Shown one piece after another: positions 52 to 16,402 of a stretch of DNA of 25,472 nucleotides. The notes under the pieces are model-generated. The model had not been told where the DNA came from. It saw only the letters and a program-made list of their open reading frames with translations, and searched no databases. The position numbers were made by a program, and so were the translations under genes. Each line of letters starts with the position of its first letter. Within the stretch, counting starts at the first letter, position 1. The stretch covers positions 1-25,472 of IMG/VR virus record IMGVR_UViG_3300032516_000184; one strand, given 5' to 3'. The stretch is from a virus.

Positions 52-105
52 GGGATGTTCCTTTGATCGTGTTGTGGGTGATCAGCCCATTCTGGTTGTG
101 AGGGT

Positions 106-133
106 ATCTTATCACTTGGGGTCAAGGTGTCAA
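106..133 (-). promoter_or_regulatory. sigma70-like leftward promoter (copy C of cassette)
   Basis: On the minus strand there is a perfect TTGACA (-35, at 133-128), a 16-bp spacer and TAAGAT (-10, at 111-106). Predicted transcription starts near 99 and serves the gene whose ATG is at 51. The block from GTTGTG (95) to TCAAGTATT (138) resembles the two intergenic cassettes at 14815 and 15323, making this a diverged third copy. Confidence 0.75.
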
Positions 134-142
134 GTATTGGAT

Positions 143-7996: not shown

Positions 7997-8919
7997 GCAT
8001 GGGTCTAGGACTTGGTTTAGGTTTACACCGTGTTAGTGGTATGGTTAGTGGTGGTGGTGGTTTTGTTGGTCCGCTTGATGGTTTGTCACAAATGCCGCAA
8101 GGAGCATATGCGCTAGAACGGTTATTCACTGCGTACAATGGGCCACTTGTTCGTCTTATCCGCTCGACTGATAATGCAGAACTTGATTGGTCAGCATTAC
8201 CTAACGGCGAACTCGACACCGCCGCAATCCTTACATGGGCGTCGACCGGATACGTCAACATTATTCGAATGTATTCCCAAGTTGGCGGCGATGATCTCAT
8301 GCAAAACGTCGCACTAATCCGCCCGATTCTCGTGTTACCTGTGGGCAGTTTGCAAGTCGTCAACGGCAAACCCGCCGCAATCTACAATTGGAGCGGGTTT
8401 GAATCGCGGCTTGACCTTGAAAATCCGATCGACGCAACGAACTTCCAAACGATGGGTGTATGCGTCAACTTCCCCACAGGTGCAAGTCGTATCATGTCAT
8501 TGACTGACGATGACATGCAAGACGATTACAACTCTCCGCTCCGTATGGTTTTCTACGGTGAATCGTACCCAAGCACCCGCAAGACAGGATCGTATTACGA
8601 CGGTTCAAACGTCGCGGTTAATCCGACGGTGAACATGGACAATAACCCGTTTGCGTTTCGCGTTGAGAAGGCAGTCAACGGCATGAACCAAAACGTAAAT
8701 GGAAACACTCAAGTCGGGCAGGGACGTGATTTCAGCGGGTTGGCAAACCCGATTTATATTTCCTGCGGGTGTGGCAAACAGGGGGCAGGCACCGGACTAG
8801 ACGGGTACTTCCCGACGCTCCTATTTTGGACGAACGCCGTATATGCGAACCTCCCGCCGATTACGGATTACTCCAACGTTTTCCGTCCTTACGCTCAATC
8901 ACGATTTGGTACACCATGA
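7993..8919 (+). CDS. arabinofuranosidase-B/LamG-like tail or decoration protein
   Basis: A 308-residue protein whose ATG overlaps the preceding stop (ATGA). After a Gly-rich leader (GLGLGLGL, GMVSGGGGF), residues about 34-80 read GAYALERLFTAYNGPLVRL followed by RSTDNAELDW and GELDTAAILTW. This is the characteristic start of ABF-B-like, concanavalin-type domains often fused to phage structural proteins. They may bind or cut surface glycans. I cannot verify catalytic residues, so carbohydrate binding is safer than hydrolysis. From about 8200 onward base use shifts: more C-ending codons and CpG, about 50% G+C in lines I counted versus about 40% in the previous gene. This suggests recent acquisition of this domain. 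Confidence 0.6.
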   Translation: MSMGLGLGLGLHRVSGMVSGGGGFVGPLDGLSQMPQGAYALERLFTAYNGPLVRLIRSTDNAELDWSALPNGELDTAAILTWASTGYVNIIRMYSQVGGDDLMQNVALIRPILVLPVGSLQVVNGKPAAIYNWSGFESRLDLENPIDATNFQTMGVCVNFPTGASRIMSLTDDDMQDDYNSPLRMVFYGESYPSTRKTGSYYDGSNVAVNPTVNMDNNPFAFRVEKAVNGMNQNVNGNTQVGQGRDFSGLANPIYISCGCGKQGAGTGLDGYFPTLLFWTNAVYANLPPITDYSNVFRPYAQSRFGTP

Positions 8920-9248
8920 CTGACATACTTCAATTCCCTGCCACAACTCCTGTTGATGATGCAGCACTCATTGAGAGCACAGTTGCACAGTGGAATCTTT
9001 GGGGTGGATTCGTTGCATGGAAGGCAGTTGATCCAAAATATGCAACTCAATTGATCGTAAAATCAATTTGGAAGAAACATCTTACGCTTCCTTTGTGGTG
9101 GGTTAATTTCAATGAAGTGAACATGTTGATTGCTAACATTGGTCGGGCTTCTATTATTGGTTCATTGATTGACACTTCGATTGTTCGTGTTGATGATGTA
9201 GATTTGGTGGCACTTGGTTACATTCAACCTATTCCTGCTCGTACATAG
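8916..9248 (+). CDS. hypothetical protein in fibre gene cluster
   Basis: A 110-residue protein of no recognised family. The ATG overlaps the stop of the previous gene (ATGA), arguing for coupled translation and for this start rather than the much longer open frame beginning at 8769 inside the neighbour. The sequence is mixed: a short N-terminal tail (MTDILQFPATTPVDD), Trp-rich helices (WNLWGGFVAW, WKKHLTLPLWW) and a C-terminal hydrophobic strand region. It could be a small fibre-associated or chaperone protein because it lies directly behind two adhesin-like genes. That is inference. Confidence 0.55.
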   Translation: MTDILQFPATTPVDDAALIESTVAQWNLWGGFVAWKAVDPKYATQLIVKSIWKKHLTLPLWWVNFNEVNMLIANIGRASIIGSLIDTSIVRVDDVDLVALGYIQPIPART

Positions 9249-9294
9249 ACCAACTGACCCTCAACGATAAAATCAACAACGAAGGATACACACA

Positions 9295-9648
9295 ATGAGC
9301 ATTCGAGACACCATAGTTGGCGTAATCTGGCGTGGACAAATTGCAATTGGCAACGCTGCCACTGGGACAAATCTCCTTGCAGCTTTGCGAACTGCAGGTT
9401 ACATTGGTCCTGATGAATGCGTGGTAAAAATTGCTGGCAAGGTAATTGCTGGCACTGATCGTGCACTTTTGACCATTGCAACTGCTCGCATTCCGACTGC
9501 AGCTATCGCTGCAGCAGATTTTACCACACATGGACAACCAGTTGCTGCAGGTATTGATTATACCGAACCCAGTGATCAGGATGCAAAACAGTCTTATATT
9601 CGTGCTCCAGGTGGTGCGATTGTTGCTCAAGCTATTGTTGTTTGGTAA
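9295..9648 (+). CDS. hypothetical structural protein
   Basis: A 117-residue, Ala/Ile-rich, apparently soluble beta-type protein with no motif I recognise. A clear AAGGAT ribosome binding site lies about 8 nt before ATG 9295. It is followed 6 nt later by the membrane/coiled-coil protein. Repeated AA and IA pairs (TARIPTAAIAAADF, RAPGGAIVAQAIVVW) suggest a packed beta domain like small tail or decoration proteins. Codon use matches its neighbours and supports a real gene. Confidence 0.55.
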   Translation: MSIRDTIVGVIWRGQIAIGNAATGTNLLAALRTAGYIGPDECVVKIAGKVIAGTDRALLTIATARIPTAAIAAADFTTHGQPVAAGIDYTEPSDQDAKQSYIRAPGGAIVAQAIVVW

Positions 9649-11379: not shown

Positions 11380-11997
11380 GTGAATAGGGAAGAAGCCAAA
11401 AAACTGGTTAATCAAGCTGATGAAGCTGGTGCAGCGGCAGCAGCACGGGTATTAAGTGTGTTGTCTGTAATGTCAACTGGTGCAATGGTTTCGGTTATTC
11501 GTTCTGTGTCAGTTGATTCTGGTGCTGGAATTGATGAACAACGCCAGGATTTGATAGTTATCCGTGCTGAATTATCCTCGTTATTTTCTGATACAGAAGC
11601 AGCGTTGTCTGATTTGGTGTCAGTACAAATGGGTATAGCTTTGATATCTGGGTTCATGGCTGAAGTTGAGGCACAAAACGAAGCACTACCTGATGGGACT
11701 GTAATCAAGCCAGACAAGAAGGAGTCACTGCTTTTAGTTGATCTTCCGATTTTGGGCAACACACGCCAAGAAACAGCCACCCACATTGCTTCAACTTGGC
11801 GATTCACCGTTGAAGGTGATGTTGGCAAAGCTGCTGCAGTTGGTGATGCTTCAATTCTGCCACCTGCTTTAATGGACACAAATCGAAAAACATCAAACCA
11901 AGTGGCTAATGCAGTAACTGAAGCATGGGTTTCTGGTCAGGGTGCAGCACGAAAAGCTGTTGGTATTGCTTTGACAAGATTGGTGCAGAATGCCTAA
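11380..11997 (+). CDS. minor head protein, N-terminal half of an SPP1 gp7/MuF-like protein
   Basis: A 205-residue, mostly helical protein starting at GTG 11380, one base after the previous stop, with AGGG (11370-11373) as ribosome binding site. Its last 60 residues (NQVANAVTEAWVSGQGAARK and on) resemble the helical region just before the Mu F/SPP1 gp7 core. The next frame begins with the remainder of that core. The two frames overlap by 8 nt. MuF-type proteins sit inside the head near the portal and are ejected with the DNA in some phages. Either the ancestral gene has been split into two coupled genes, or a frameshift joins them, or the read contains an indel. Confidence 0.6.
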   Translation: MNREEAKKLVNQADEAGAAAAARVLSVLSVMSTGAMVSVIRSVSVDSGAGIDEQRQDLIVIRAELSSLFSDTEAALSDLVSVQMGIALISGFMAEVEAQNEALPDGTVIKPDKKESLLLVDLPILGNTRQETATHIASTWRFTVEGDVGKAAAVGDASILPPALMDTNRKTSNQVANAVTEAWVSGQGAARKAVGIALTRLVQNA

Positions 11998-13579
11998 CGT
12001 AACTGTCACTTCAGCTGATTTACAGGCAGCATTGACTCTCGAGAATGCACAGGGTCTCGAAGCTGGTCATCTTGATAGCAGCAGTGTGTGGTACGAATTT
12101 TTGACCCAAGATGATGACAGAGTGCGTCCCAGTCATCAGGCTTTGCATGGGACAGTGTGGCGGGTAGGCGATGTATCGGCACCTGTGCCACCCCTCGACT
12201 ACGGTTGCAGATGCTTTATCAAGTACGTAGCCAAACCAGATAGTGAAGCTGCAAAGTTTTTACCTCCTGCAGAGTCTAAACCAACCACACAATCTAAAGC
12301 ATGGGGTGACTGGTTAGACAAGGAAGCTCCAACCTGGGAAACGCTGCTTAAAACGGCTATGAACACTCCGATTGAAGATCGGTTGCCAACTTTGACCCTG
12401 GCTATTCAAAAAGCAACCAACAAGCCTATGGTTGAGTCCAGAGACTTAGCTAGGATGGCATTAGCAACTGAGCAACAGGGGGCCAAATCACCTGCTAGTT
12501 TGAAGGTCGTGAAACCTCCAATATCAGACGCTCCGACATTACCTGTTCCTTCGCCCACGGCAGTACCACCGTTGGCAGCGGTGGCACCTCCGATACCACC
12601 CCCCATTTCGACACCCACTCCTGCTCCTGATGACGAGGAAGCCACCAAGAAGCGAGTTCTTGAAGCTGCTGTTGCTGCTGCTGAAGCTAGAATAGCAGCA
12701 AGGAAAGCAGCGGCAGCAATAGAAGCAGATGCAATAATAGCAACAGCGGCAGCAAGAGCAGCAAGAGCAGCAATACCTGTTAATCCTAATGATCAACTGT
12801 CTCAAGATCGGTGGGCAGCAATTAATGCCATACCCAAATTTGAGCCATCTGATGGTCTTAAACGTAAGCCATGGTTAAGCTCTCCCGCTGGTCCAGGAAT
12901 GGATAAAGCCTATGCACGGACAGTAACACAGAGAGGAAGTGACGGTGAGGGAAATGCTCAACGGGCTGAAGCTGCTAATGATTACCTGGAAGCTTTAAAA
13001 CGTGATGATGTTGTACCTTCATTTGCTTTTAGAGCGGCAAACCTTAAAGGGTTATTCACTAAAGGGTTGTTGAATCAGCATCATACTGGTACGTCTGGTG
13101 GCATGCTTGACCCTCAAAAGCGTGATGGTCTTGAAAAGTCAATGTTTGGTGTTTCTTCTAATGAAGCTGATGATCACCCAACTTATGGTTATTTGCGAGT
13201 TAGTGGCAAAGGGTCAGGTGTTTCGAATTATGGTGATATTGCAGTTCGTTTGAAGCCTCGTGTTTTGGAACGAACCACGTTCACACATGGTGACAGTCTT
13301 GATAGAAATTACCATCTGGTTAATGACAAAAATCAGGTGCAATCTCCTTTAGCTCCAGCTAGTCCTGCTCTCGAACCTGGGTTACAGTCTTTTAATACCA
13401 GTGGTCTTAAAAGTGTTAGTTATATCGAAGCGCAGTTTTTTGGTAAAATCACCAAAGACGACATTCTTCGCATTGACTGGATTAATAAGAAGCCAACAGA
13501 AGAACAAATCAAAATGATGGAAGCTGCAGGCATCCCGTACACAGTGAATAGTGGAGGCTACAACAAAGATTTGTTTTAA
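11990..13579 (+). CDS. MuF/gp7 C-terminal head domain fused to a toxin-like (DUF3626/ART-like) C-terminal domain
   Basis: A 529-residue multidomain protein. Residues 41-80 carry the Mu F/gp7 signature (DDDRVRPSHQALHG, then PVPPLDYGCRCFIKYV), with C73 and C75. Residues about 182-217 are a Pro-rich linker (PVPSPTAVPPL and on) and about 218-262 an Ala-rich helix. Residues about 300-529 form a separate domain: MFGVSSNEADDHPTYGYLRV, LERTTFTHGDS (R428, GDS 434-436) and YIEAQFFG (478-485). This order resembles DUF3626, which I associate tentatively with ADP-ribosyltransferase-like folds. MuF proteins with variable C-terminal toxin domains are a known phage class. The head role is well supported; the toxin role is inference. 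The convergent gene overlaps the stop by 4 nt. Confidence 0.7.
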   Translation: MPNVTVTSADLQAALTLENAQGLEAGHLDSSSVWYEFLTQDDDRVRPSHQALHGTVWRVGDVSAPVPPLDYGCRCFIKYVAKPDSEAAKFLPPAESKPTTQSKAWGDWLDKEAPTWETLLKTAMNTPIEDRLPTLTLAIQKATNKPMVESRDLARMALATEQQGAKSPASLKVVKPPISDAPTLPVPSPTAVPPLAAVAPPIPPPISTPTPAPDDEEATKKRVLEAAVAAAEARIAARKAAAAIEADAIIATAAARAARAAIPVNPNDQLSQDRWAAINAIPKFEPSDGLKRKPWLSSPAGPGMDKAYARTVTQRGSDGEGNAQRAEAANDYLEALKRDDVVPSFAFRAANLKGLFTKGLLNQHHTGTSGGMLDPQKRDGLEKSMFGVSSNEADDHPTYGYLRVSGKGSGVSNYGDIAVRLKPRVLERTTFTHGDSLDRNYHLVNDKNQVQSPLAPASPALEPGLQSFNTSGLKSVSYIEAQFFGKITKDDILRIDWINKKPTEEQIKMMEAAGIPYTVNSGGYNKDLF

Positions 13580-13842
13580 GGAGCCGACCAATAACCTTGT
13601 TTGATTACTGTATGCAAATTTTCAACTTGCACATCACCCCCACCACGTTCAATATTAGTTTCAGTTCGAAGTAATCCGATTGGTGGTTCTGTTCCATTGT
13701 TGTGGAAAAGTGCAGCAAAAACTTCACCATCATCACTCTTTTGAATTGCAATTAGTGTGGTGTTTTCGGGTGGTGTAAGGTCCATGGCTTTATTATACAG
13801 AGAAGCTGGTAATCTGCCAGCCACCCCACGTATGTGTTTCAT
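13576..13842 (-). CDS. small hypothetical protein, convergent with the MuF-toxin-like gene
   Basis: An 88-residue protein with no recognised family. I place the start at ATG 13842 because GGAG lies 6 nt upstream of it; an in-frame ATG at 13854 contains that GGAG in its own codons. The middle is beta-like (TTLIAIQKSDDGEVFAALFH), followed by an acidic, Gly-rich stretch and VQVENLHTVIKQGYWSAP. Its stop overlaps the stop of the MuF-fusion gene tail to tail. It is the last gene of the leftward island. The position next to an effector-like domain makes immunity or regulation a possibility, but nothing in the sequence proves it. Confidence 0.55.
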   Translation of the reverse strand: MKHIRGVAGRLPASLYNKAMDLTPPENTTLIAIQKSDDGEVFAALFHNNGTEPPIGLLRTETNIERGGGDVQVENLHTVIKQGYWSAP

Positions 13843-13893
13843 TTGTGTCTCCATACTTTTAATTCATCAAGCCTGTCGGGTAATTGATCTGGT

Positions 13894-14541
13894 TCACACC
13901 CACCACGGCTCTTGAGCAAATTGCGCCAGTCCTTCCTCTGCGATGCGTAGAATTTCAATCTTGGTAGCTTCAAATTCGATGACCCAAGCTTCAACTTTTA
14001 TTGGGTCACTGGTTTCAAGTTTGGCAACTTTTTGGAGCATATTAGCTGCCAAAGTGTTTATACTACGTGAACACTTGATTGACCCACTTTCAACTTCAAA
14101 GTTTAAAGGTATACCCAAGTATGCGCAACGGATTTCATAGCATGCTGACCAATGATCTTTACCCTTACGCGAGCAAGCTGAAACAATGCACAAGGCTAGA
14201 GGGTTGGCATACAACTCGTTGTAGCAACGCTCATTTGCACCATTGATAATAACTTTAGCTGCTCTACGACGAGCAACCATTTCTAAATATGGCTTAAGTT
14301 TACCTTCTGCAACTGCAGCTTTGGTCTGTTCGAGCAGTTTGTTGGTCAGTTTGGGCAGAGCATATTTTTGTCCATTGCACTTATAACACGTCGTGCTTCC
14401 CATTGAATTTCGGCTATGATGACCAGAACCATTGCAACGGCTGCAAAATTCGCCCAAATCAATAGCCCAAAGGCGAACTGGGACCATTGACTCGCGGCAT
14501 TGAAGGACAGAAGCGAAATCAGACGAGGTGAGCTTATTCAT
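13894..14541 (-). CDS. zinc-finger protein of unknown role (DnaJ-type CxxCxG motifs)
   Basis: A 215-residue protein with two DnaJ-like zinc knuckles near the N-terminus: CSRCNGSG (C33, C36) and CYKCNGQK (C52, C55). They should bind one zinc ion. The remainder is predominantly helical, with further Cys residues (SACSRKGKDHWSACYEIRCA) that could be structural. Similar zinc knuckles occur in phage Q-type antiterminators and in recombination accessory proteins. I cannot choose between these. Ribosome binding site AAGGAGAT lies inside the end of the upstream gene and the ATG overlaps its stop, so the two are coupled. It is transcribed against the structural genes from the promoter at 14826-14853. 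Confidence 0.6.
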   Translation of the reverse strand: MNKLTSSDFASVLQCRESMVPVRLWAIDLGEFCSRCNGSGHHSRNSMGSTTCYKCNGQKYALPKLTNKLLEQTKAAVAEGKLKPYLEMVARRRAAKVIINGANERCYNELYANPLALCIVSACSRKGKDHWSACYEIRCAYLGIPLNFEVESGSIKCSRSINTLAANMLQKVAKLETSDPIKVEAWVIEFEATKIEILRIAEEGLAQFAQEPWWV

Positions 14542-14798
14542 GACGCGATCTCCTTGGTGGTGATAAAGGCGTTGGCTTCTTCCAGGTCCATTGTTGAATC
14601 AAGGTAATCACCTTCTTCACCTCCCTGTTCAAAGAAGCCGAAAAAGTTGGCACCCAGTTGGGCGGCCCTGAGGATAGCTTCCTTGACGCTCAGCGCGTCA
14701 AATTCGTCGATTAGCTCGAAGTCTCGTACGACTTCGACGTAGACGCCTTGATCCGTACCTTTATGTATGCGAGCGGTGATGTTTTGGTTCTCGGTCAT
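14538..14798 (-). CDS. small acidic hypothetical protein
   Basis: An 86-residue acidic protein, the first gene behind the consensus promoter at 14826-14853, with ribosome binding site AAGGAA 7 nt before the ATG. The pattern is beta-beta then helix (TARIHKGTDQGVYVEVVRDF, then SVKEAILRAAQLGANFFGFF) with an acidic tail region (GGEEGDYLDSTMDLEEANAF). No family recognised. The strong promoter, good ribosome binding site and coupling to the zinc-finger gene support a real, probably early-expressed gene. Small acidic early proteins often modulate host factors, but that is speculation here. Confidence 0.6.
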   Translation of the reverse strand: MTENQNITARIHKGTDQGVYVEVVRDFELIDEFDALSVKEAILRAAQLGANFFGFFEQGGEEGDYLDSTMDLEEANAFITTKEIAS

Positions 14799-14814: not shown

Positions 14815-14888
14815 GTTGTGAAGATATCTTAGCAACTGGGGCAAGGGTGTCAAGTATTTCTACACAACACCCCAACTGATATATTCCT
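14815..14888. repeat. 74-bp intergenic promoter cassette, copy A
   Basis: It aligns without gaps to 15323-15396 with 5 mismatches in 74 positions (counted by hand), including a 41-bp identical core at 14843-14883. It contains a leftward TTGACA/TAAGAT promoter and, at its right end, the rightward element with one change (CTGATATATTCCT). GGGTGT and ACACCC form an inverted pair spaced 16 bp apart within the core. Confidence 0.9.
14826..14853 (-). promoter_or_regulatory. sigma70-like leftward promoter (copy A)
   Basis: On the minus strand a perfect TTGACA (14853-14848), 16-bp spacer and TAAGAT (14831-14826). Predicted start near 14819 gives a leader of about 20 nt that contains the AAGGAA ribosome binding site of the gene starting at 14798. 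It should drive the three genes down to 13576. Confidence 0.85.
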
Positions 14889-14899
14889 TTTAGTTGGTT

Positions 14900-15304
14900 T
14901 CAAATGCCACGGTTGCTAGAAAAACCAAGAGTTTGTCCACCATTTACCAAGTTGCGCTCCGCTTTTGCGGATTTGGCAAGGTTTGCAGCTGTCGGAAAAT
15001 CCAAGCACAGATCGCGAAGGCTGCTAGCGCGGCGTTCCAATTTCACCATTTTGGCTTTATTCTTTTCGCGAGTGATATGCTTTTTGATCACGTTTTTCGC
15101 AAATTCTTTAGCAGTGCAAAATAAATTATCAACCATTACCAAAGCATCAGCCTCTTCAAATATTCCCATTTTGACACCCGCAAGGGTAGGAACCACTACA
15201 CGCTTGAAAAGTGACTTGTCTGCGTACATGTACATAACTTTGATTCCTTTGTAGTCGCAGTCGTAGGTTCCTGGGATGGTGGTTGCTTTGATTGAGAGTT
15301 CCAT
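14900..15304 (-). CDS. accessory hypothetical protein flanked by repeated promoter cassettes
   Basis: A 134-residue protein of no recognised family. The start ATG 15304 has AAGGAAACAGATC upstream and lies just behind a consensus promoter, so it is preferred over an open frame extending to 15361. The N-terminal half is beta-like (IKATTIPGTYDCDYKGIKVM, FKRVVVPTLAGVKMG). The middle is helical and strongly basic (FAKNVIKKHITREKNKAKMV), which could bind nucleic acid. The tail is flexible. The gene and its promoter are bracketed by two 74-bp near-identical cassettes. It therefore looks like an independently transcribed, transferable accessory gene (a 'moron'). Confidence 0.6.
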   Translation of the reverse strand: MELSIKATTIPGTYDCDYKGIKVMYMYADKSLFKRVVVPTLAGVKMGIFEEADALVMVDNLFCTAKEFAKNVIKKHITREKNKAKMVKLERRASSLRDLCLDFPTAANLAKSAKAERNLVNGGQTLGFSSNRGI

Positions 15305-15322
15305 GATCTGTTTCCTTGTGGA

Positions 15323-15396
15323 GTTGTGAAGGTATCTTAGCAACCAGGGTAAGGGTGTCAAGTATTTCTACACAACACCCCAACTGATATACTCCT
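15323..15396. repeat. 74-bp intergenic promoter cassette, copy B
   Basis: This is the partner of 14815-14888 (69 of 74 identical by hand count; identical core 15351-15391). Unlike copy A, both arms face genes: the leftward promoter serves the gene starting at 15304 and the rightward element serves the gene starting at 15400. The inverted pair GGGTGT (15353-15358) and ACACCC (15375-15380) overlaps the leftward -35 and could be an operator. Confidence 0.9.
15334..15361 (-). promoter_or_regulatory. sigma70-like leftward promoter (copy B)
   Basis: On the minus strand a perfect TTGACA (15361-15356), 16-bp spacer and TAAGAT (15339-15334). The predicted start near 15327 leaves a short leader of about 23 nt with the AAGGAA ribosome binding site of the gene starting at 15304. 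Confidence 0.85.
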
Positions 15397-15399: not shown

Positions 15400-15954
15400 A
15401 TGGGCTTCGACCTATCGGGATTAAAGCTTATCAAGCAAGTCAAAGAAGACTTAGCTCGTGCTGTATTTTTTGCCTGTCAAGAGTATGCTAATGGCGGGTT
15501 TCGTGCTGAACCTATTGTTAGGCAGCATTTTACTGATGGCAACCAAGGTCGTTATTCTTGGCCAGCACTTTCGACCAAATATGCAGATTGGAAAGCTGGC
15601 AATGTTAAGCAGTTAAAGCAAGGAATTAAGAAGGCTGGTAGAGTCGTGCCTAAAGGTAGAGGCTTGCCTATGCTCGTTTTATCTGGCAAATTACGTGATT
15701 CTATTGCTGGCAGGGGTGCAAAGATCAGTCGTACTGGTCCGGAATCTTTTTTGATTACTTGGGCAAACAGCCCACACTATGCAATCTTCCATCATACTGG
15801 CACCCCAAAGATGCCAAAGCGTAGTCCAATTGAACCAAATGCGAGTGATCAGAAGCAGGTGATTGATGCTGCTAACCGTTATTTGTCATTATTTCTGGGT
15901 AAGGCTGGTGTGGTGGTTGCGGGTGGTGCACCTGGACCTAGGGCAAGAGCGTAA
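15400..15954 (+). CDS. HK97 gp10-like/virion morphogenesis (tail completion) protein
   Basis: A 184-residue protein with the family hallmark layout: an N-terminal helix, then GLPMLVLSGKLRDSIAGRGA (the LxxTGxLxxSI-type motif, residues about 87-107). A strand pair follows, then SPHYAIFHHTGTPKMPKRSP (the 'YAxxHxxGT...PxRP' motif, residues about 126-145), and a C-terminal helix. These proteins act at the head-tail interface during tail completion. It is the first gene of the second structural block after the leftward island. There is no ribosome binding site; the start directly follows a promoter element, predicting leaderless translation. The family call rests on visible motifs. Confidence 0.75.
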   Translation: MGFDLSGLKLIKQVKEDLARAVFFACQEYANGGFRAEPIVRQHFTDGNQGRYSWPALSTKYADWKAGNVKQLKQGIKKAGRVVPKGRGLPMLVLSGKLRDSIAGRGAKISRTGPESFLITWANSPHYAIFHHTGTPKMPKRSPIEPNASDQKQVIDAANRYLSLFLGKAGVVVAGGAPGPRARA

Positions 15955-15962
15955 ACAAACAG

Positions 15963-15995
15963 ATTCCTTTGTTAAACTCGGTTGATAAACTTCTG
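15963..15995 (+). promoter_or_regulatory. rightward promoter element before the tube-candidate gene
   Basis: CTCGGTTGATAAACTTCTG at 15977-15995 matches the portal promoter element at 17 of 19 positions. ATTCC (15963-15967) lies 17 bp upstream of TAAACT (15986-15991), the same spacing as at 2004. The predicted +1 at 15998 would give a 12-nt leader beginning AGGAG, i.e. an mRNA that starts at the ribosome binding site of the gene at 16010. Confidence 0.55.
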
Positions 15996-16009: not shown

Positions 16010-16402
16010 ATGGCTGTCGTTGTACATCTTTTGTCGTCTGCAACTGAGGGTGTGACTCCTATTCTTGATGTGCAATCCGCATCAATTGATGAAGGTGGGA
16101 GTGCACAAGAATATATCACTGCTGATGATCCTGATGTTCAGTTGGTTGCAGTTGATCGCATTGCTGCGACTGTCACTATTACCAAACTTGGATACGCAGC
16201 TGCACCCAATATTGGTGATGTTGCTGCTGCTCCAGGTTTGACACTTGTATTGAAGCCACGTGCTGAAGGTCGTGGTGTGGTGGCTTCGCCAGTTAGCATC
16301 ATTTTTCCTAAAGCAGTTCTTGTTGGTAAGGGCAGTGGTCCTTCAATTGAAGGCTCACCTTCTTATACTCTAACCTTCCGCTGTTACGCAGCACCTCTCT
16401 AA
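16010..16402 (+). CDS. putative tail tube protein
   Basis: A 130-residue beta-rich protein between the gp10-like gene and the chaperone/tape-measure candidates, the usual place for the major tail (tube) protein. Strands are evident (AVVVHLLSS, TVTITKLGY, TLVLKPRAEGRGVV, SYTLTFRCYAAPL) with few helices. It has its own promoter-like element and a good ribosome binding site (TAGGAG, 8 nt before ATG), as expected for an abundant product. Length is at the short end for tube proteins. I recognise no specific family; the call is from order, fold type and expression signals. Confidence 0.5.
   Translation: MAVVVHLLSSATEGVTPILDVQSASIDEGGSAQEYITADDPDVQLVAVDRIAATVTITKLGYAAAPNIGDVAAAPGLTLVLKPRAEGRGVVASPVSIIFPKAVLVGKGSGPSIEGSPSYTLTFRCYAAPL

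Follow-up and report, generated by a model that had tools for sequence, protein, structure and literature searches.

Phages carry accessory genes in several described arrangements. A moron is defined by comparison of related phages, as one or more genes that look like an insertion into an operon, and a terminator is not required (PMC2629481). In the "ant moron" of P22-like phages, accessory genes occupy one site in the structural operon, with variable content and with absence from some relatives (PMC2629481). PeSL cassettes of T4-type phages (Arbiol 2010, Comeau 2014), as outlined in PMC4503421 and PMC3950731, are repeated early promoters between small accessory genes and are proposed as an aid to shuffling. 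In cluster K mycobacteriophages, SAS/ESAS repeats lie upstream of many genes and have been suggested as possible recombination targets (PMC3203893), and in the haloarchaeal virus HGTV-1 a conserved promoter-like motif before many open reading frames has likewise been suggested to aid shuffling (PMC3950731).

We analyzed IMG/VR record IMGVR_UViG_3300032516_000184, a metagenome assembly of 25,472 nt that is referred to as the window in its full length. The window contains a leftward accessory island bordered by a MuF-like head gene and a neck gene, with a duplicated promoter-like cassette (Table 1). The locus is real and informative, and similar arrangements have been proposed before in other phage groups (PeSL, ESAS). 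Our best reading is that of a moron locus under a promoter family used across the phage genome, with a possible mode of action like that of PeSLs.

A repeated, predicted leftward promoter and its family

The window holds two 74-bp direct repeats, P1 and P2, that enclose a single 134-aa gene. They agree at 69/74 positions, the mismatches being at 14824, 14837, 14838, 14842, and 14884. The longest stretch without a mismatch measures 41 bp, ends at 14883, and is also the longest exact repeat of the whole window; first-order Markov shuffling of the window, done 50 times, gave exact repeats of no more than 20 bp. A preliminary description of this DNA had reported the two copies with their five differences, the 41-bp run, and exactly one enclosed gene, and all of these coordinates and counts were reproduced. 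The further claim that the copies are far more alike than their surroundings also held, with 60-bp ungapped flanks matching at 21/60 and 18/60 positions; when gaps are allowed, a weak likeness extends via the leader and ribosome-binding site to the start codon. To that description we add a partial third copy, 82% identical over 44 bp.

Table 1. Coordinates of the promoter copies, island genes, and bordering genes in the window
Feature	Position	Strand	Remarks
Third promoter copy	95..138	-	TTGACA 133-128; 5' of leftward gene starting at ~52, left of terminase module
MuF-like head gene	11990..13579	+	DUF3626 C-terminus; left border of island
92-aa gene	13576..13854	-	Last of island; G2 50% identical; G1 shares first ~27 residues only
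Scar	13842..13898	-	~19-codon (~57 bp) 3' remnant of a gene like the 71-aa gene of G1, between 215-aa and 92-aa genes
215-aa gene	13894..14541	-	Zinc-finger motif of CxxCxGxG type; likeness to anti-TRAP/DnaJ falls short of curated cut-offs
86-aa gene	14538..14798	-	Led by P1; relatives searched for, none found
P1, second cassette	14815..14888		Leftward TTGACA 14853-14848, TAAGAT 14831-14826; precedes 86/215/92-aa genes
134-aa gene between copies	14900..15304	-	ATG at 15304
P2, neck-side cassette	15323..15396		Leftward TTGACA 15361-15356, TAAGAT 15339-15334; CACAAC in leader, GTTGTG upstream
Tail completion/neck protein gene	15400..15954	+	phrog_26, 1.4e-9; right border of island; relatives 79-80% identity

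An exact 41-bp repeat in a metagenome contig lies within assembler k-mer range and could mislead an assembler into fusing two variants, both present in the population, of a junction that is single-copy. We regard such an artefact as very unlikely, since the leaders differ between P1 and P2, each has its own gene start, and the order of the flanks on both sides is as in the relatives.

Read leftward, the cassette has the form GTTGTG-9-TTGACA-16-TAAGAT-5-CACAAC, with TG preceding the -10; a leader that includes a ribosome-binding site comes next. At both island copies the ATG lies 27 to 29 nt past the -10. Relatives used for comparison were IMGVR 3300044858_003524 (G1), 3300002026_000086 (G2), and the more distant 3300044646_000926 (G3). 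A scan of the window and these three long relatives found three promoter copies in the window, four in G1, five in G2, and none in G3. All 12 copies, from three phages, are leftward and stand 5' of leftward genes, which belong to the island, to a group left of the terminase, or to an early-type region; the terminase-side copies have their gene start further downstream than the island copies do (ATG at ~52 in the window). P2 has counterparts in the same place in G1 (29098/29125) and G2 (21753/21780). The 6-bp pair GTTGTG/CACAAC is present in 7 of the 12 copies, with GTTGTG 8 or 9 nt from the -35.

A weight matrix built from the 12 sites found no extra sites in the contigs, none in G3, and none in shuffles; the high scores of the 12 sites are uninformative because the matrix was trained on them. 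The exact IUPAC promoter pattern, searched in 2.9 million IMG/VR contigs, matched only G1 and G2 (records near the window possibly lying outside the search), and the exact 21-bp cassette core had no match in IMG/VR. A pattern match in a GTDB Nitrospinae metagenome-assembled genome was set aside as chance, with an unrelated gene downstream and no terminase match in that genome. Megablast of the window against phage records gave no match, a terminase profile run against GTDB genomes found no relative and did not identify a host, and searches with the neck profile and the G3 neck protein gave no additional close relatives. The G+C content of the window is 46%, compared with 60-62% in relatives whose terminase is 89% identical, a large shift in composition within one phage group.

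No terminator-like sites were found adjoining the cassettes. The cassettes fold with z of -1.4 to -1.6, and the stem is not conserved in P2 of the relatives. A GGGTGT/ACACCC hairpin over the -35, a candidate operator or PeSL stem, was rejected on its absence from the relatives' P2. The fold at the convergent end of the MuF-like and 92-aa genes is stable (z of -2.9) and may act as a terminator. Judged from its sequence, the cassette is a lineage-specific leftward promoter and leader used phage-wide ahead of leftward gene groups, with promoter activity and its timing being predictions. This would be its primary role, and service as a recombination slot would be secondary.

Variable content of the island

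Read from left to right, the island is 92-215-86-P1-134-P2 in the window, 92-218-P'-98-95-P2 in G2, and 67-71-71-98-96-P2 in G1, where numbers are gene lengths in amino acids and P' is a second promoter copy. For the gene immediately left of P2 in G1 and in G2, and for the third G1 gene, lengths are counted from the post-leader ATG (the ORF lists give 118, 117, and 88 aa). In G3 the interval between the MuF-like and neck genes contains a rightward 70-aa gene only, with no island, promoter, or rightward -10. The leftward island is thus common to three phages with differing gene sets, and it is missing from G3 at the same place, which agrees with the insertion that defines a moron. The own promoter expected of a moron is represented by a strong consensus promoter in the right place, as predicted from sequence.

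The first genes behind the neck-side copy encode 134 aa in the window and 95/96 aa followed by 98 aa in G2/G1. The 134-aa protein had no relatives in Pfam, PHROGs, PADLOC, phage records, or IMG/VR, and its AlphaFold model was unusable (pLDDT 35). The 215-aa protein is 60% identical to the product of the 218-aa gene of G2 and has no counterpart in the G1 island. It matched the Q-like antitermination family phrog_6060 weakly (E of 0.033), and its structure model (pLDDT 69) had no PDB match at E < 0.001. It could be a regulator within the structural operon.

Likeness between G1 and G2 runs from the neck gene through the stop codon of the 98-aa gene and breaks off precisely at that point, the site of P' in G2. 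A second variable slot lies outside the structural module (G1 8868-9511, G2 147-473), with promoter copies of differing sequence and unlike genes; the G1 promoter at 9511 and an extra gene precede the gene that in G2 directly follows the promoter at 473. Content changes coincide with promoter copies at two loci, yet other changes occur elsewhere. Two island junctions lie away from any copy, namely, the scar that follows the 215-aa gene and the swap of the MuF C-terminus, which is DUF3626 in the window and G2 and ADP-ribosyltransferase-like in G1. The end of the neighboring 67/92-aa gene changes along with that C-terminus. MuF proteins with such C-termini have been described as phage polymorphic toxins against bacteria (PMC5576092). 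Counterparts of the MuF-like gene lie at 7106-8632 in L004 and at 6586-8334 in L005.

The preliminary description had proposed a promoter-carrying integration slot for morons and a search for the cassette in related genomes. The cassette does recur in G1 and G2 with different genes behind the neck-side copy, and the promoter-like sequence, its recurrence, the variable content, and the islandless G3 bear the proposal out in part; the junctions distant from the copies do not fit it. The single-copy, gene-free version of the arrangement that it had called for was not found among the relatives: none equals the window minus the 134-aa gene (three island-bearing phages, two of them close).

Each copy was said to hold a leftward consensus promoter and a rightward element, and this was seen for both (TTGACA-16-TAAGAT leftward; TATATT in P1 and TATACT in P2 rightward). 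P2 ends in the rightward extended -10 TGATATACT, with TATACT from 15388, 12 nt before the ATG of the neck gene, and G1 and G2 carry GGTATACT at the equivalent position. A rightward -10 is found 5' of the neck gene in all three island phages and not in islandless G3. This distribution suggests that the element at P2 starts the structural operon anew beyond the right end of the leftward island. Rightward -10-like motifs also occur at 2027 (TTGATATACT), before the portal gene, and at 15986 (TTGATAAACT), before the gene at 16010, the latter conserved as GATAAACT in G1 and G2; by their sequences, both are possible late promoters.

The cassette had been described as bidirectional, and this applies to both copies in the window; in the relatives only the neck-side copy is bidirectional, the second copy being solely a leftward promoter in G2 and absent in G1. 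The rightward element of P1 is an extended -10, TGATATATT, that points toward the 134-aa gene at its 3' end and serves no evident gene. Its direction into that gene would allow an antisense RNA that controls the gene. We consider such control improbable: copying of the whole cassette explains the element equally well, and the example is single. The rightward element of P1 looks like a by-product of copying.

Origin of the duplicated cassette

The stretch that spans the rightward -10 through the -35 is 40/41 identical in P1 and P2, and the stretch from there to the start codon agrees at 41/51 aligned columns. In the upstream part, the window copies match the relatives' P2 at 21-23/30 positions, and G1 matches G2 at 26/30. 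The upstream part of P1 and P2 is thus more alike within the window than to the relatives' P2, which indicates that it was recently duplicated or converted. The leader and spacer of P1 resemble copies other than P2. From these comparisons, the upstream part of the pair is probably younger than the split from G1 and G2, and the downstream part has another history.

We propose that a rightward structural operon was interrupted between the MuF-like and neck genes by a leftward moron island. P2 would drive the island leftward, and its rightward extended -10 would restart the neck and tail genes. In the window, the 134-aa gene and a duplicate of the P2 intergenic region lie between P2 and the remaining island genes, an arrangement that would give each gene group its own promoter. 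The duplication would have arisen on gain of a promoter-plus-gene unit, perhaps via a crossover within the core that the promoters have in common, and the 41-bp identity could permit loss of the 134-aa gene through recombination. Either a gain of the 134-aa gene with one crossover in the promoter core or a later conversion of P1 by P2 would produce the likeness seen between the copies. We consider this explanation as a whole, with phage-wide promoter copies serving a moron island, the restart at P2, and duplication with gene gain, to be likely on the sequences compared.

If the copies were regular substrates of homologous recombination, the enclosed gene would be repeatedly lost, gained, and swapped between them. 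The 41-bp exact identity of the direct repeats, the unlike genes behind the neck-side copy among relatives, and the resemblance of P1 to a hybrid of the P2 upstream half with another leader are all in keeping with such a slot. However, the relatives compared include no deletion or swap product that keeps these flanks, the second copy in the G2 island is 82% identical over 51 bp, the G1 island has no second copy, and the further breakpoints (the scar and the MuF swap) are distant from the copies. Regular exchange of this kind is possible in our view but doubtful, and recombination between P1 and P2 is a hypothesis from their sequences.

Alternatively, P1 could be a long-standing promoter ahead of the 215-aa gene group, orthologous to P', that was gene-converted by P2 in concerted evolution unrelated to gene gain. 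The 218-aa homolog in G2 is likewise led by P', and the leader and spacer of P1 resemble non-P2 copies. On the other hand, P1 has the rightward -10 and P' lacks it, so that the copied tract extends almost to the start of the neck gene, and the genes enclosed by P2 and the second copy (P1 in the window, P' in G2) have no relation to each other, which indicates that gene content did change there. We therefore regard conversion without gene gain as rather unlikely and retain the gain of a promoter-plus-gene unit, which would account for an accessory-gene slot built from reusable promoters; the sequences fit such a slot.

Comparison with known systems

The locus illustrates, in a small and clean case, how accessory genes may be gained without disruption of the structural operon of a phage, in that a single element would act as a bidirectional start signal and a possible recombination target. 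An islandless state, three unlike fillings, and a duplicated cassette are directly comparable at one site. A bolder reading, which we hold less likely than not, is a small tailed-phage lineage, unrelated to T4, with its own spreading promoter-leader cassette, in which promoter-plus-gene units might enter by crossover in the core and the duplicated bidirectional cassette might serve both as the start of the newcomer and as the restart of the operon.

The island resembles the ant moron in its single structural-operon site, its variable content, and its absence from a relative. In contrast to the ant moron, the promoter itself is here a repeated, genome-wide phage element that is duplicated at the island. 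ESAS feature an imperfect inverted repeat of 17 bp close to the start codon, which is missing here (the dyad is only 6 bp), and, in contrast to SAS/ESAS, the cassette is a full -35/-10 promoter with a leader. The repeated promoter-like motif of HGTV-1 is similar in kind but is archaeal TATA-box-like, with an inverted repeat. With PeSLs, as the cited accounts outline them, the cassette shares promoter repetition (12 copies in three phages), the early class of the present promoters being putative. It differs from PeSLs so outlined in that the stem-loop/terminator part was not found, the phage is small and unrelated, and the promoter is of the sigma70 type with GTTGTG/CACAAC flanks. PeSLs as there described are closest in proposed function. 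We class the locus among moron loci and call its cassette PeSL-like in its possible mode of action rather than a PeSL.
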